Virus record (IMG/VR): IMGVR_UViG_3300020200_000174
Location: 1 to 24,312 of that record
From: a virus
DNA length: 24,312 nucleotides
Strand: one strand, 5' to 3'
The position numbers were made by a program, and so were the translations under genes. This document shows positions 6,572 to 15,626 of the stretch, in pieces. Each line of letters opens with the position of its first letter. Positions within the stretch are counted from its first letter, which is position 1. A model generated the notes under the pieces. That model worked only from the letters and a program-made list of their open reading frames with translations, searched no databases and had not been told where the DNA came from.

Positions 6572-7137
6572 GGTAGCCACCCTTCCTCCTTCAACTCGCT
6601 GGCGCACTGGAGCAGCTCGGGCGGCGTCAACATGGAACCTACCATGGTGAAGCACTTATCGATAGCGTGCGGGCGCCGTGTGCTCAATGGGATTTCTGAT
6701 TCGTGGCCGGTTGGCTGGGTGTTAGGTGTGCGGGGATAGAGTTCGAGTATGCGGCCGCCCATGCCTTGTAGGAAGTCCGCCTCGTTCGGGAAGCGGACGT
6801 CGTCGACGACGAAGCGCATTTCCTGTGGTGCCTGTTTGATGGCGTTGACGAGCTTTAAGGCCCACACGGCGGGGTGGATGGAGCGGACGCCCTCGGTGCC
6901 GAGCTTCTGGAGCATCTCGCGGTGCGTCCTGCCCCACTGTGGGCATAGCTGTTCAATCCAGGGGTAATGGAAGTGTGCGGCCGGGCACCCGTAGATGTAG
7001 ATAGCAGCGGTACGGATGGGGTGCGCAAACGAGACGCGCTTGTAGTCGTGCTGCACTTCTAGCAGCTTGGCTAAGGTGGTCTTGCCGCAGCCAGATGGGC
7101 CGTGGATGCCGATTATTCGGACTGCTTCGGTTCCCAT
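6568..7137 (-). CDS. Deoxynucleoside monophosphate kinase
   Basis: A 189-aa P-loop kinase that would phosphorylate dNMPs to dNDPs for phage DNA synthesis in the cytoplasm. Walker A is GPSGCGKT at residues 13-20. GRTHREMLQKLGTEGVR and later FVVDDVRFPNEADF are the signatures I associate with phage dNMP kinases. The start ATG at 7137 has AGGAG eight bases upstream. Longer readings only cover the overlapping peptidase gene in another frame. It overlaps the upstream metallopeptidase gene by 25 bases and the downstream polymerase start by four, consistent with translational coupling within a nucleotide-supply and replication unit. Confidence 0.9.
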   Translation of the reverse strand: MGTEAVRIIGIHGPSGCGKTTLAKLLEVQHDYKRVSFAHPIRTAAIYIYGCPAAHFHYPWIEQLCPQWGRTHREMLQKLGTEGVRSIHPAVWALKLVNAIKQAPQEMRFVVDDVRFPNEADFLQGMGGRILELYPRTPNTQPTGHESEIPLSTRRPHAIDKCFTMVGSMLTPPELLQCASELKEEGWLP

Positions 7138-7454
7138 GTGCTGAACTCCTGTAGCAAGGTGAGGATGTCCGGGTTGTGGACAATCAGGTCGAGGATACCG
7201 TTCGCCATGCCCTCGATGAAGCCCTCGGACGGCTCCTCGTAGGGCGCGTAGATGTGCTGGATGACGTGGAGCAGTTCGTGTATGAGGCACTGGACTTGTT
7301 CGATGTCGTCGACGTCGTCGCGCAGCTTGATGTTGTGCTGGAGGAAGTCGGCCTCCGCCAACAGGTTCATCCGTTGGAGGTAGGGGGTCTCGTGGGTGAC
7401 GGTGTAGGGGAACGCGCTGACGTAAATCACGGGGAGTAACTCGGGGATTGACAT
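7113..7454 (-). CDS. Small HExxH metallopeptidase-like protein
   Basis: A 113-aa protein with LIHELLHVIQHIY, giving the zinc-binding and catalytic HELLH at residues 59-63, and SEGFIEGMANGI downstream, where Glu-81 could be the third zinc ligand. This is the arrangement of small phage and ImmA-like zincins. The start ATG at 7454 has GGAGG six bases upstream. No signal peptide, so cytoplasmic. Substrate unknown; it could process a phage or host protein. Its 3' end overlaps the dNMP kinase by 25 bases. Residues 16-25 (PYTVTHETPY) are encoded by a 34-nt sequence repeated exactly at 2194-2227. A structured non-coding leader lies directly upstream. Confidence 0.8.
   Translation of the reverse strand: MSIPELLPVIYVSAFPYTVTHETPYLQRMNLLAEADFLQHNIKLRDDVDDIEQVQCLIHELLHVIQHIYAPYEEPSEGFIEGMANGILDLIVHNPDILTLLQEFSTWEPKQSE
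7377..7410 (+). repeat. 34-nt exact direct repeat, copy 2
   Basis: Identical on the + strand to 2194-2227. Here it lies inside the - strand metallopeptidase gene, where it is read in reverse as PYTVTHETPYL with ordinary GC-rich codons for this genome. Copy 1 has atypical codons, which suggests that this copy is the older one. Confidence 0.9.
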
Positions 7455-11329: not shown

Positions 11330-11979
11330 AGCGCCTCCTTTATGCGAGTGAGTACCGATTCGGGAACCTTGCAGTCACGTAACTGCTCGTCGGTGGGGCG
11401 TAGGAGTAGGATGCCGTCGGGCCAACGGGCGTAAAGGCGCTGCAACATGGCGGGGCCGACGCCCCGAACGGATGCAACCATACGCTGTTTGGTCTTGCGG
11501 CTGTCTGAGCCGGCGATGGCTTGGAACGGGGCGCGCGAATCCTCGGCCATGAGCAGCTTGTAGGCGCCCAGTTGGCCCATAACTTCGCTGTCGTCGGTCG
11601 AGAGTGGCAGTAGCAGGATGCCCAACAGTTGCAGGGAAACGAGGTATGCCATCACGTTCGTGTGGAAGTGGTGGGGGACGCCACCCCGCAGCGCCAGACA
11701 GACGATGCCGTCCGGCCCCACTTCGTCACGACACGCCCGCAGTTGGCGGGCGAGGCGGCGGGTTGAGATGGATTGCAGGAGGTCGGGTTGCCGCTTCGCC
11801 TCGACGGCGACCAGGCGGTTGCCAATGGCGAAGGCCCAATCAAGCTCCTGCGGCATCTTGACGTGGACAACGCCATCGGATTCGGTTAGGGCGCGCAACT
11901 CGCCCTTCCCGCAGAGCAGCGCACCCTGGGGTCCAAGGAAGCGGGCGCCATCGTAAATACCATCCGGCTGTAGGTTCAT
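11326..11979 (-). CDS. ERCC4/XPF-type nuclease with helix-hairpin-helix end
   Basis: A 217-aa protein. Residues 51-80 read AIGNRLVAVEAKRQPDLLQS and continue ISTRRLARQL, the ERCC4 nuclease core in which GDx(n)ERKx3D appears as G53-N54...E60-A-K62...D66, so two motif positions are altered. The last 55 residues (VASVRGVGPAMLQRLYARWP...KVPESVLTRIKEAL) form a helix-hairpin-helix DNA-binding region. Nucleases of this family cut branched or flapped DNA; here it could resolve replication or recombination intermediates. Start ATG 11979 overlaps the phosphatase stop as ATGA, with only a weak ribosome site, so translation is probably coupled. Confidence 0.85.
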   Translation of the reverse strand: MNLQPDGIYDGARFLGPQGALLCGKGELRALTESDGVVHVKMPQELDWAFAIGNRLVAVEAKRQPDLLQSISTRRLARQLRACRDEVGPDGIVCLALRGGVPHHFHTNVMAYLVSLQLLGILLLPLSTDDSEVMGQLGAYKLLMAEDSRAPFQAIAGSDSRKTKQRMVASVRGVGPAMLQRLYARWPDGILLLRPTDEQLRDCKVPESVLTRIKEAL

Positions 11980-12626
11980 CCGCGATTCACCACCTGTTCA
12001 TATTCGTCCAGCAATTTCAACTGCTCGAGCGTCTCCACGGCGTACTTGCAGTATTGGGTGTGGATGTTGTCCAGAGCGGCCGTGGCGGTGCTGCCTTGCG
12101 CGATGAGCAGGGCGGCTAGCACGGTGCCGGTGCGGCCATGCCCGCCAGCACAGCCAATCTCCACCCGCTCTCCGTTTTCCACCAGGCGAAGGATGGTGGA
12201 GACTAACGTACCAAGGTGGTTAACATGGACAACCCCATAGTCCTGCCAGGGCAGGTAGATGACGGGGAAGGCGAGGTTATACTTGTCGGTGGGTGGGGTA
12301 TGAAACCCAAGTGCGGGGCTGTTGTAAAGGATGCCGGGGCGGTCGAGCCACTGCGAGGCGAGGTAGACGCCGATAGTGGGCCATTCGGCTTGCGCGGGGG
12401 TGCTTGCCGAGCGGTAGGCCGATGCGTAGATAAGCCTGCCGTTGCGGAGGGTGACGGGCGTGACGTGGTGCTCGCATGGGGCTTCCGTGACGGTGGTAAC
12501 GGTGGGTTCCTGGAGCCATAAGAAGCAGGGCTTGCAGATGCGCTTGATGTCGATGCCAAACATGGTCATTCCTCCTTCAAGTTCGGATTCGGGGTAAAGC
12601 TCTTCGCAAACGTCGCACGTTAGCAT
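11976..12626 (-). CDS. Zinc-ribbon / dual-specificity Cys-phosphatase
   Basis: A 216-aa protein. Residues 1-40 hold CDVC (4, 7) and CKPC (31, 34), an N-terminal zinc ribbon. The rest is a tyrosine/dual-specificity phosphatase. It carries the signature GCAGGHGRTG, with catalytic Cys-159 and phosphate-binding Arg-165 (CX5R), and YLPWQDYG, where Asp-129 is a likely general acid. Such enzymes remove phosphate from proteins, nucleotides or RNA through a phospho-cysteine. Start ATG 12626 overlaps the PEP-synthase-like gene by seven bases with no strong ribosome site, so coupling is likely. Being coupled to a phosphotransferase suggests that both act on the same target. Confidence 0.85.
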   Translation of the reverse strand: MLTCDVCEELYPESELEGGMTMFGIDIKRICKPCFLWLQEPTVTTVTEAPCEHHVTPVTLRNGRLIYASAYRSASTPAQAEWPTIGVYLASQWLDRPGILYNSPALGFHTPPTDKYNLAFPVIYLPWQDYGVVHVNHLGTLVSTILRLVENGERVEIGCAGGHGRTGTVLAALLIAQGSTATAALDNIHTQYCKYAVETLEQLKLLDEYEQVVNRG

Positions 12627-13675
12627 CGGGTCACACTTCCGTTGCGACCGTCCACGGTGACAACCTCACCATTGGCCAGGATGTTGGCGAGGGGTTGGCC
12701 GACCACGCACGGCTTGTTGAACTCGCGGCAGACGATGGCGGCGTGGCAGGTGCGCCCGCCAACGCTGGTGACGACGGCCACGGAGGCGCGGATAGCCTGT
12801 ATCATGTCGGGCTTGGTCATTTGCGTGACGAGGACGCTGCCCGGGCGGAATGGTTCCTCGCTCGGTTGGCGGTGGACGGGGCCAGTGCCGACCAGTTTGG
12901 TGATGCCCAAACCTGGCTTGCCTGCGAAGTTGGCGAGGATGCGGTGCGAAATGGGTCGCACTTGGAGTATCCAAAGCAGGTCGTCGCTGTCCGAGTAGGC
13001 CCATTCAACGTCGATGGGGTGGTTAAACTCCTTCGTCAAGCTGATTAGGGCGGACATAAGCATGGAGAACCAGCGGGGGTTCCCGGGTAGTGACATCTCC
13101 TGCAAGGAGGCGGAGAGGGAACCGGCGGGTGCGACTTCGCCCGAGACCAGGCCGCTCCCATCTTGGCGTTCCACCCAATCGAGGCAACCTTTGTACATGT
13201 TGCCGCTGTGGATGTCGACGCTCAGGTAGGTGCCCGCCATGGCGATGCCCTCAACCATTGGCTGTACGAGGACAGGGAGGGTATCGGGCAGCATGACGTC
13301 GAAGGCTTCGGCGTAGAGGCGCGCTGAGTCGGTCGTCCGCCGCACTTGCTCAATGGCGGCAGTCAAGGCGGCGGCTTCGGCGGGGACATTGAGCAGCGTC
13401 TTGAATTGACCGGCGAATGAAAGCTCACCGGTGTCCTCGACCGGCGCTGACGACCGCACGGCCAAGAGTGCAGTCGGCTTGATGGCGTAACCCATTACGT
13501 TAAGGTCGGCAGCGATATCTCCCCGATTGGGCGTTGTGTGTGGCTGGGCAACCCAAGTTACCGGCACGTTGTAACGGCCGATGAGCTTCTGGAGGCCGAC
13601 GCCCTTGCCCCCGATAAGGGCAAGCCGTTCTTTGAGTGAACCAGTAGGTGCGTTTGCAATCAGTCTAAAGAGCAT
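12620..13675 (-). CDS. PEP-synthase/PPDK-like phosphotransferase lacking the substrate domain
   Basis: A 351-aa protein. Residues 1-245 are a PPDK_N/ATP-grasp nucleotide domain: GGKGVGLQKL at 22-31, AVRSSAPVEDTGELSFAGQF at 72-91, VLVQPMVEG near 135-143, SGLVSGEVAP at 174-183, DVEWAY at 222-227 and WILQVRPI at 235-242. Residues 279-350 are the swivelling phosphohistidine domain, GSVLVTQMTKPD...SVGGRTCHAAIVCREFNKP, with His-311. The PEP/pyruvate barrel of PEP synthase, and the extra domain of rifampicin phosphotransferases, are missing. It should move phosphate from ATP to His-311 and then to an unknown acceptor. ATG 13675 is preferred to an upstream in-frame start because GGAGG lies eight bases before. 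Overlaps the Cys-repeat gene by 11 bases. Confidence 0.9.
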   Translation of the reverse strand: MLFRLIANAPTGSLKERLALIGGKGVGLQKLIGRYNVPVTWVAQPHTTPNRGDIAADLNVMGYAIKPTALLAVRSSAPVEDTGELSFAGQFKTLLNVPAEAAALTAAIEQVRRTTDSARLYAEAFDVMLPDTLPVLVQPMVEGIAMAGTYLSVDIHSGNMYKGCLDWVERQDGSGLVSGEVAPAGSLSASLQEMSLPGNPRWFSMLMSALISLTKEFNHPIDVEWAYSDSDDLLWILQVRPISHRILANFAGKPGLGITKLVGTGPVHRQPSEEPFRPGSVLVTQMTKPDMIQAIRASVAVVTSVGGRTCHAAIVCREFNKPCVVGQPLANILANGEVVTVDGRNGSVTRC

Positions 13676-14654
13676 GGTGCTTCCTCCACATAGCCGCATA
13701 CTGGCGGTCGCAGATAGATACTAGGTACGCCACGTTGCCACTTTGGTTTTCCGAGAGGATGGGAAATAGGTGGCGGCTGGACGACCACACCTTATCGAAC
13801 AGCGAACCGCCGTTGTGCTGAATGCCGAAGAGGGAATCCACGAATAGGGTTGGGGTGATTTCGTCCTGCAAGTAGGAGTAAAGGAGACCGGCGACACGCG
13901 CCCAAGCCTCACCCCCGTAGACGGTGCCAGGGCACAGCTCGAAGATTCTGATGGCGGTCCGCAAGGCCTCAATACCGTAGTATTGCCGGATGCGGAACCA
14001 AGTGAGCCACGCTTCGGACCGCCCACCGTGAAGGTTTTGCATGACTTCTTCGACGGGGGAAGCGACCTGGCTAGCGATTTCGCGGACGCTGTGGCGCACC
14101 TCACCGCCGACGGCCATGTCGACATAGCGGGCGAAGCGTTCGGCCAGATCCTTTGCGTAGGGCTTGAACAGCCCCTCGTCGAGGCCGTCCAAGGCGAGGT
14201 CGTACAGGACGTAGAAGTTGGCGGCGTTATCGGGGAGGGCGAAGTCCGGGTCGATGTCCCACAGCTTTAACGCGCGGTGCCGCTTGCTGCCACAAAGGCA
14301 GTCAAGCTCGTCGCACTCGGGGCAGCGTGTGCAGTGGCAGTCTTGGAAGCGCTCCCCGCAGCGGGCGCACTGGTCACATTGGCACTGCTCAAGCAAGTAG
14401 TTGCAATACTCGCAACGGTCGCAGGAGCAGTCGACATCGAGTTGGGTGCAGTTGTCACAACGGTAACATTCGCAAAGGTAGACGAGTTCGTCACATCGTT
14501 CACACCGAGGGCAAATGCACTCGTCGCTGATGGCGTCGCACTCGGGGCAGCGCACGCAGGTGCAATCCGGTATACACTCATCGCACGCGGAACACCGTTC
14601 GCAGGTGCAGTCAGGGGTGCGGTTGATACAGTAGGCACAGAGTACGAGTGGCAT
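13665..14654 (-). CDS. Eight-repeat cysteine array protein with C-terminal phage domain
   Basis: A 329-aa protein. Residues 6-121 are eight tandem modules C-x2-C-x6-C-x-C-x2. They start at Cys 6, 21, 36, 51, 66, 81, 96 and 111, an exact 15-residue period; only the last is two residues short. With one extra Cys at 27 this makes 33 cysteines, probably binding zinc (or Fe-S) once per module. Residues 125-329 are a helical domain with VYGGEAWARVAG and LFVDSLFGIQHNGGSLFDKV, which resembles uncharacterised phage domains (YGG..W, HN.GS...KV). GGAGGTTAA precedes ATG 14654, so the helicase stop and this start abut. It is followed with overlap by the phosphotransferase. A scaffold or nucleic-acid-binding partner is inferred; I cannot name the family. 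Confidence 0.85.
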   Translation of the reverse strand: MPLVLCAYCINRTPDCTCERCSACDECIPDCTCVRCPECDAISDECICPRCERCDELVYLCECYRCDNCTQLDVDCSCDRCEYCNYLLEQCQCDQCARCGERFQDCHCTRCPECDELDCLCGSKRHRALKLWDIDPDFALPDNAANFYVLYDLALDGLDEGLFKPYAKDLAERFARYVDMAVGGEVRHSVREIASQVASPVEEVMQNLHGGRSEAWLTWFRIRQYYGIEALRTAIRIFELCPGTVYGGEAWARVAGLLYSYLQDEITPTLFVDSLFGIQHNGGSLFDKVWSSSRHLFPILSENQSGNVAYLVSICDRQYAAMWRKHHAL

Positions 14655-15626
14655 TTAACCTCCATTCAGACCGATTAGTTTGCGGGAGAGATGGAGCGGG
14701 TCGGGCCAGCGGCAGATGAGACCCTCTCGTTCTGCGTCGGCGACCCACCGTTCGACCTCCCGCACGGACACGCCGCAAGTGTTGGACAGCTCTTGCTTGA
14801 GGTTGGCCCACAACTGGGGGCCGGCGGCGAGTGCGTTGCGGAGGACGGTGAGGTATTCGGCGCCTGCACCCTCGACCAGCTCGAACAGGCCGGTCGTGTA
14901 GTTGACGCTTAGTTGTTGGGTGGGCGGGTGCTTGGTGCGGGCGCGCGTCTTGTGGTACTGGAGCGTCCAGACTGTTTGCGGGTTGTTGCAGGTTAGCCCG
15001 AGGACGGTCGAGGGGCGGTCAGTCCAGACGCTGTTGCCACGGGCGGCGTACTTGCCGTCGTCGTGGAATTCCAGGGACGGTTTCCTTACGTGGTGGATGC
15101 CGATGAAGGTAAGGGGGTTGGGCGCTGCCATCGAGAGGCCGTCGATGGCCGAGTAGAACTCGTCGCCCACGTTCGAGTCGTTCTCGTCACCGCGGAAGAA
15201 GGCACGGAGGGGGTCGATGACGAGTACGTGCGGCGCAACGGCGGTGATGGCTTCACTGAGCCGCTGGAAGCCGGATTGCGTGTTGACCTTCAGGTCAGCC
15301 ACGGTCGTGATGGCGAGGTGGTGGGCGGGCAAGTCCTTGTACGAGGAGAGCAACTTGCGAAGCCGCTCCTGATATTCGCCCTCGGCCACCTCGGCCTGGA
15401 CGATGAGAACCTTGAATGAACGGGGGACACGACGGGTGAAGAAGTCCCCCGCACTGGCTAGTTCGAGGGCCATTTGCAGGCCCAGGTAGGACTTGCCGGC
15501 CTCACTCGGCCCGACGATGAGCAGCTTCTCGCCCAAGGCGAGGATGCGGTCTTCGATGACCGGCTCGTAGGGGAAGTCTTGCTGAACGAAGTCCTCCGCC
15601 CACCAGACCTTCGCCTCAGTGCTCAT
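14655..15626 (-). CDS. RepA-type hexameric replicative helicase (RecA fold)
   Basis: A 323-aa ATPase with Walker A GPSEAGKS at 39-46, Walker B VLVIDPL at 134-140, a sensor-like FIGIHHVRK, and AARGNSVWTDRPSTVLGL. This is the order found in RSF1010 RepA-like AAA_25 helicases of plasmids and phages. The last 75 residues (YLTVLRNALAAGPQLWANLK...SVREVERWVADAEREGLI) form a winged-helix DNA-binding region. It would unwind DNA for the family A polymerase; no primase or DnaB is visible in the window. Start ATG 15626 overlaps the upstream stop as ATGA. Confidence 0.85.
   Translation of the reverse strand: MSTEAKVWWAEDFVQQDFPYEPVIEDRILALGEKLLIVGPSEAGKSYLGLQMALELASAGDFFTRRVPRSFKVLIVQAEVAEGEYQERLRKLLSSYKDLPAHHLAITTVADLKVNTQSGFQRLSEAITAVAPHVLVIDPLRAFFRGDENDSNVGDEFYSAIDGLSMAAPNPLTFIGIHHVRKPSLEFHDDGKYAARGNSVWTDRPSTVLGLTCNNPQTVWTLQYHKTRARTKHPPTQQLSVNYTTGLFELVEGAGAEYLTVLRNALAAGPQLWANLKQELSNTCGVSVREVERWVADAEREGLICRWPDPLHLSRKLIGLNGG

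Follow-up and report, generated by a model that had tools for sequence, protein, structure and literature searches.

A phage cassette of a helical HNGG domain, a phosphatase and a PPDK-type dikinase with no detectable barrel: a candidate phosphotransfer system bearing a long four-cysteine array

In the pyruvate phosphate dikinase (PPDK) family, ATP phosphorylates a histidine on a swivelling domain, and this domain then rotates towards a second one that accepts the phosphoryl group: in PPDK the PEP/pyruvate barrel, and in rifampin phosphotransferase a helical domain that binds the drug. PPDK, PEP synthase and rifampin phosphotransferase share the ATP-binding (PF01326) and phosphohistidine swivel (PF00391) domains and are modular, a separate domain receiving the phosphoryl group. 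The phage locus described here has the same two domains in a partner gene and is likewise modular. In contrast to the described enzymes, its acceptor position would be filled by a domain (HNGG) that is absent from the libraries and has no fold match in the PDB; the phage parts are often split over two or three genes, and a PTP-type phosphatase always adjoins them.

The HNGG protein of this locus also carries an N-terminal cysteine array, for which two kinds of metal-binding protein offer comparisons. Like the CCHC zinc knuckle (PF00098) and other short Cys4/CysHis units, the array is built of short, repeatable units with four ligands in 13-15 residues. Unlike the knuckle (C-x2-C-x4-H-x4-C), its unit is C-x2-C-x6-C-x-C, so that the spacing is 2-6-1, all ligands are cysteines, the segment is acidic and Pfam gives no match. 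Metallothioneins share its cysteine density and CxC/CxxC motifs; the array differs from them in its exact 15-residue period, its single four-cysteine set per unit and the fusion of the module to enzymes and virion-type proteins.

The locus and the partner enzymes

The window, that is, the whole stretch analyzed, comprises 24,312 nucleotides of the IMG/VR virus record IMGVR_UViG_3300020200_000174. The relevant features are as follows.

11976..12626, minus strand: PTP/DSP-type phosphatase (CAGGHGRTG, C-x5-R, and Pfam)
12620..13675, minus strand: dikinase subunit with PPDK_N (ATP-binding) and PEP-utilizers swivel domains (Pfam)
13665..14654, minus strand: complete gene (329 aa) with the four-Cys array at the N-terminus and the helical HNGG domain at the C-terminus (ORF and SD-like GGAGG)
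13668..14273, minus strand: HNGG helical domain, residues ~128-329, candidate dikinase acceptor module (AF2 and phage relatives)
13791..13916, minus strand: signature G247-G248-x2-W251 ... D273 ... H280-N281 ... F286-x-K288, used as search pattern
14091..14102, minus strand: E185-x-R187-H188 motif, conserved among relatives
14292..14639, minus strand: Cys array, residues 6-121 (Cys positions and charge)
14655..15626, minus strand: AAA_25/RepA-like ATPase, immediately upstream, a neighbor outside the claimed system (domain match)

The array ORF looks like a real gene because an SD-like GGAGG lies 5' of it at 14663-14659, its start codon directly follows the stop of the AAA_25 gene, and its gene order is shared with relatives. 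The dikinase gene has its own GGAGG; its probable start is ATG 13675, and 13699 is also open. If the SD-preceded ATG 13675 is used, the two genes overlap by 11 nt, in agreement with the phosphotransferase overlap reported in a preliminary description of this DNA. Elsewhere in the window, a small ORF (7113-7454) contains an HELLH motif and is a possible metallopeptidase; its match to DUF6782 is weak (E 0.049).

The window dikinase matches PPDK_N (PF01326, E 1.5e-21) and the PEP-utilizers swivel (PF00391, E 1.1e-22), the latter with a catalytic-type histidine in GGRTCHAAIVCRE. Pfam searches gave no match to the PEP/pyruvate barrel PF02896 in the dikinase proteins of the window and of three cultured phages (Vibrio, Stenotrophomonas and Rhodobacter), nor in the fused relatives described below. 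For this reason, we did not file the window dikinase as a PPDK. The PPDK and PTP of the Vibrio phage vB_VneS_J26 have been called auxiliary metabolic genes, the PPDK being read as an enzyme that interconverts PEP and pyruvate (PMC12038007); as the tested proteins have no detectable barrel, such a reaction is doubtful for the phage proteins.

The window phosphatase has a CAGGHGRTG loop that fits C-x5-R and matches PF22784 (E 1.8e-9). A CxxC...CxxC zinc-ribbon-like N-terminus is present on this protein and on the phosphatases of L297, L325, and L410. The gene at the PTP position in DLP3, gp141, is labeled "thymidylate synthase," while the CD-Search in the same paper says phosphatase (PMC7326821). 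The equivalent gene of Summit matches PTP profiles and, together with the CD-Search result, this makes the label look like a misannotation. The same label is attached to phrog_17568, also a PTP-position gene.

The HNGG family and its conserved neighborhood

AF2 modeled the HNGG domain as all-helical with high scores (pLDDT 90.8, pTM 0.88), which supports the earlier proposal that the array is joined to a helical domain. Foldseek, one of the checks suggested for this part, found no PDB match at E<=0.001 and four phage protein models in BFVD (E<1e-3, probability 1.0). PDB sequence searches with the array and with the HNGG domain returned nothing significant. As Foldseek gave no PDB counterpart of the fold, an active site cannot be carried over to the domain from a solved structure.

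Weak relatives of the HNGG domain were found by tblastn in ~80 kb Vibrio phages, all without the array. Residues 238-313 of the window protein match phrog_20946, a family of unknown function (E 3e-8 to 1e-8), which forms the branch of the HNGG family that occurs in Vibrio phages; it shares the HNGG domain with the window protein and differs from it in having no Cys array. Further rounds of searching brought in Stenotrophomonas and Rhodobacter phages and at least about 120 IMG/VR stretches. The GG-x2-W...D...HN...F-x-K signature occurs in at least 141 ORFs (at least 111 non-redundant), revealing a large phage family, and E-x-R-[H/Y] is kept in 103 of 106 relatives even though it lies outside the search pattern. 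All of these elements (E-x-R-[H/Y], GG-x2-W, D, HN, and F-x-K) are present in the window protein. A search of viral contigs for close relatives, run with the whole window protein and with the partner dikinase, gave nothing, and a profile search of 398 Vibrio-phylum genomes, weak for lack of a positive-control genome, found no HNGG domain. Identity with DUF7222 was rejected: one relative matched, only below the cut-off, and the other tested records had no match. A tree of 106 HNGG domains, with low support and long branches, does not separate a single from multiple origins of the Cys-rich extensions. One contig (L362) has two HNGG genes; the second lacks the E-x-R-H motif and, close to where it would lie, has an insert with 15-20 cysteines.

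We then counted partner genes at the non-redundant loci flanked by 3 kb of sequence on either side, using HMMs built from the PTP and swivel sequences found there. Among the matches listed, a PTP lay within 3 kb of HNGG at 41/41 loci and a phosphohistidine swivel match at 35/41, as opposed to 0/156 control viral loci (1.35 Mb in all) for either HMM. The PTP gene (11976-12626) neighbors HNGG in the window too. In the cultured Vibrio, Stenotrophomonas, and Rhodobacter phages, PPDK comes first, followed by small genes, a PTP and HNGG, in many cases another PTP, and, further on, DNA polymerase. In L325 and L410, the closest syntenic relatives among the matches listed, the order is HNGG-PPDK-PTP as in the window; identity between the window and L325 is 32% for PPDK, 40% for HNGG, and 34% for PTP. 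HNGG and PTP are present on the L246 and L281 contigs (possibly fragments), in which PPDK_N and swivel were not found. HNGG is linked more tightly to the phosphatase than to the dikinase.

Among the matches listed there are five fusions of HNGG to a swivel domain. Three are complete PPDK_N-swivel-HNGG polypeptides (L337, 796 aa; L360, 813 aa; L374, 780 aa), and two are swivel-HNGG fusions in ORFs cut at the 5' side by the contig end (L343 and L427). Pfam recognized PPDK_N and PEP-utilizers in the three complete proteins and the swivel in L343, and left the HNGG part unmatched. In these fusions HNGG follows the swivel, at the position that the PEP/pyruvate barrel has in PPDK, so HNGG is most simply explained as the acceptor module. 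The dikinase can also be split, as in L277-L279, where swivel and PPDK_N are separate genes. Between the swivel and HNGG genes of these contigs lies a SprT-like metalloprotease gene (L277:3292-4020 and similar genes in L278 and L279); the L277 match is just below the Pfam cut-off (E 1.4e-4).

The four-cysteine array

The array contains 33 cysteines, at residues 6, 9, 16, 18, 21, 24, 27, 31, 33, 36, 39, 46, 48, 51, 54, 61, 63, 66, 69, 76, 78, 81, 84, 91, 93, 96, 99, 106, 108, 111, 114, 119, and 121. The preliminary description had read them as eight exact 15-residue repeats in perfect period. The count of 33 in the first 121 residues stands, and seven units are exact C-x2-C-x6-C-x-C at period 15 (starting at 6, 21, 36, 51, 66, 81, and 96); the eighth (111/114/119/121) is shortened to C-x2-C-x4-C-x-C, and Cys27 is an extra residue outside the pattern. 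The window protein has 27 Cys-Cys pairs at a lag of 15, compared with a mean of 7.5 and a maximum of 15 in 5000 same-composition shuffles.

Between units, identity at non-Cys positions is 16%, compared with 7.6% expected from composition, and the DNA identity of non-Cys codons is 37.5%. The cysteine codons are mixed (TGC 23/TGT 10), and a search for a tandem DNA repeat over the array region found none. The low between-unit identities and the mixed codons indicate that the units are old and not the product of recent DNA duplication; the cysteine register is what has been kept while other positions diverged.

With 28% cysteine in CxC and CxxC motifs, the array has a net charge of -16 before metal (26 D/E, 10 K/R). 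Its AF2 model shows beta-bridges recurring every 15 residues, though with low confidence (pLDDT 66, pTM 0.27). None of the Pfam, NCBIfam, and PHROGs families or PDB sequences covers it. This agrees with the preliminary description, which could assign the array to no named zinc or Fe-S family; the match to a characterized family that would have told against it did not appear. The proposed regular four-Cys, metal-type scaffold is supported; the metal is probably zinc, in Zn(Cys)4 sites, as assumed from the cysteine pattern. A disulfide-rich secreted protein was judged unlikely, given the operon shared with intracellular enzymes.

Among the matches listed, a comparable array on the HNGG domain is confined to L246 and L375, where it is shorter and irregular. 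In L325 and L410, an acidic, Cys-poor stretch takes its place. The conservation of period and cysteines across relatives, on which the preliminary description had staked its proposal, is therefore not seen. Other members of the family have unrelated N-terminal Cys-rich segments (L332/L408, L333, and L364) or Cys-rich inserts near the E-x-R-H helix (L310, the second copy in L362, and L351), and the fused L337 protein has at its C-terminal end a CCHC zinc knuckle that scores above the Pfam cut-off. The Cys-rich N-terminus of the L332/L408 proteins contains an exact tandem repeat of another kind, about 27 residues long (ASWCGDCGTCTDCCHSCRRCGECTSS). Most HNGG family members have no array, so the core reaction cannot depend on it, and we regard it as a removable accessory.

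We also looked for the unit in other proteins. An unfiltered two-unit pattern scan gave mainly antisense low-complexity matches, and a filtered pattern was used instead. Across 2.9 million viral contigs, this filtered DNA pattern, which demands two units side by side, matched 39 stretches in all; translation and filtering, applied to all loci collected, left plausible arrays in 33 proteins (26 non-redundant, window included). The unit recurs in about 25 other proteins, nearly all on phage contigs and mostly with two to four units; these carriers are mostly unrelated. The window array is the longest exact array found by the two-unit search. Sixty six-gap units gave the consensus R-C-[E]-[E/D]-C-G-E-L-x-D-[D/E]-C-E-C-D-R, in which the dominance of the six-residue gap is biased because the search pattern required it. 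Most of the other arrays are acidic, like that of the window. They start with CxxC and finish with CxC, and L271 has a lone unit after a linker, which argues that the four-Cys unit is a natural module.

The carriers include an amidoligase-like protein (L265, just below the Pfam cut-off), a weakly prohead-protease-like protein (L245), and L256, which is similar to L245; several array-bearing proteins have no Pfam match at all. The unit is a portable, recurrent phage module that family libraries do not name. The Amidoligase_2-like protein, L265:6751-8427, has its two-unit array at the C-terminus. Array proteins of L012, L244, L261, L263, and L273 contain an HPH-x(n)-CFG segment that by eye resembles an E2/UBC-type active-site region; Pfam scans of L012, L244, L261, and L263 gave no support for this likeness. 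Genome contigs scanned with the pattern yielded mostly low-complexity noise and, among the matches listed, left one acidic array-like match, on L221, where a large bacterial protein, lectin-like and apparently secreted, carries three exact units towards its C-terminus.

A proposed phosphotransfer system and its alternatives

We propose, with a probability of roughly 0.55, that the window protein serves as acceptor subunit in a phage phosphotransfer system of three components and that its array is an acidic Zn(Cys)4 docking scaffold. The overlapping gene would encode two domains of a PPDK-type dikinase: PPDK_N, which binds ATP, and the swivelling domain that carries the phosphohistidine. HNGG would replace the missing PEP/pyruvate barrel and either bind the phosphoryl acceptor or be the acceptor itself. 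The constant PTP suggests that the phosphorylated product is later dephosphorylated, and the neighboring phosphatase would act on this same product; we infer that phosphate flows in this direction. The N-terminal array would most likely fold into eight small Zn(Cys)4 units in a row and, as an acidic scaffold, dock a partner or substrate beside the acceptor domain. The preliminary description had suggested, as one possibility, that the metal centers are presented to the phosphotransferase. Fusions and the conserved neighborhood support a functional tie between the two proteins, which runs through the helical domain; no sign of a part for the metal sites was seen.

The published naming of the vB_VneS_J26 genes, together with the intact PPDK_N and swivel domains, would fit an auxiliary metabolic set, in which a true PPDK shifts pyruvate/PEP, the PTP rewires host signaling and the Cys/HNGG protein is a passenger. 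We consider this very unlikely: the PF02896 barrel was not detected in any group of proteins tested, HNGG is fused in its place, and linkage to PTP at all 41 loci (among the matches listed) is not that of a random passenger. The difference between PTP and swivel counts (41/41 versus 35/41 among the matches listed) and the L246 and L281 contigs could instead mean that HNGG is an adaptor or substrate of the phosphatase, its link to PPDK arising from co-inheritance. Against this, the five fusions join HNGG to a swivel-bearing protein, whereas no HNGG-PTP fusion was seen among the matches listed, and we hold such a partnership to be improbable.

Two further alternatives concern the array. It might be a nucleic-acid-binding string of zinc fingers in a system that modifies, for example phosphorylates, DNA or RNA ends, with the PTP being of the RNA 5'-phosphatase type. 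CCHC zinc knuckles are known mainly for binding single-stranded nucleic acid, and one ends the fused L337 protein; some PTP-superfamily enzymes are RNA 5'-phosphatases, and the cassette lies near replication genes. However, the negative charge of the window array and of most other arrays, and the acidic, Cys-poor stretch in its place in the closest relatives listed, run contrary to the requirements of nucleic acid binding. This makes such a function unlikely and tells against the earlier suggestion of binding along DNA or RNA. A reading as DNA hypermodification was dropped, as no domain in support of it was found. The cysteine density and the low AF2 confidence would also suit a metallothionein-like zinc store, sink or buffer, or redox protection, with no docking role. 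We give this little credence, as a cluster protein would have no need of so strict a four-Cys register, and the occurrence of the same unit, mostly in two to four copies, on unrelated phage proteins speaks more for a fold unit than for a bulk store. The reading that suits the array best is an acidic zinc scaffold for docking a partner.

The larger finding appears to be a previously unrecognized dikinase-acceptor-phosphatase cassette, a putative PPDK-type phosphotransferase with a new acceptor domain. The "pyruvate phosphate dikinase" and "tyrosine phosphatase" genes of many Vibrio, Stenotrophomonas, and environmental phages have been cast as helpers in metabolism (PMC12038007). A dedicated phosphotransfer system is suggested by the missing barrel, by the new domain fused in its place and by the near-universal PTP linkage. 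The array contributes a four-Cys module of simple design that can be repeated and that phages reuse on many proteins. Tentatively, and with somewhat less than even confidence, we suggest that these genes represent a widespread phage phosphotransferase in which ATP-dependent phosphorylation of the swivel histidine would feed a new acceptor domain or a macromolecule that it holds, a dedicated PTP would reverse the reaction, and zinc modules, here a record-length eight-site array, may steer the system to its target.
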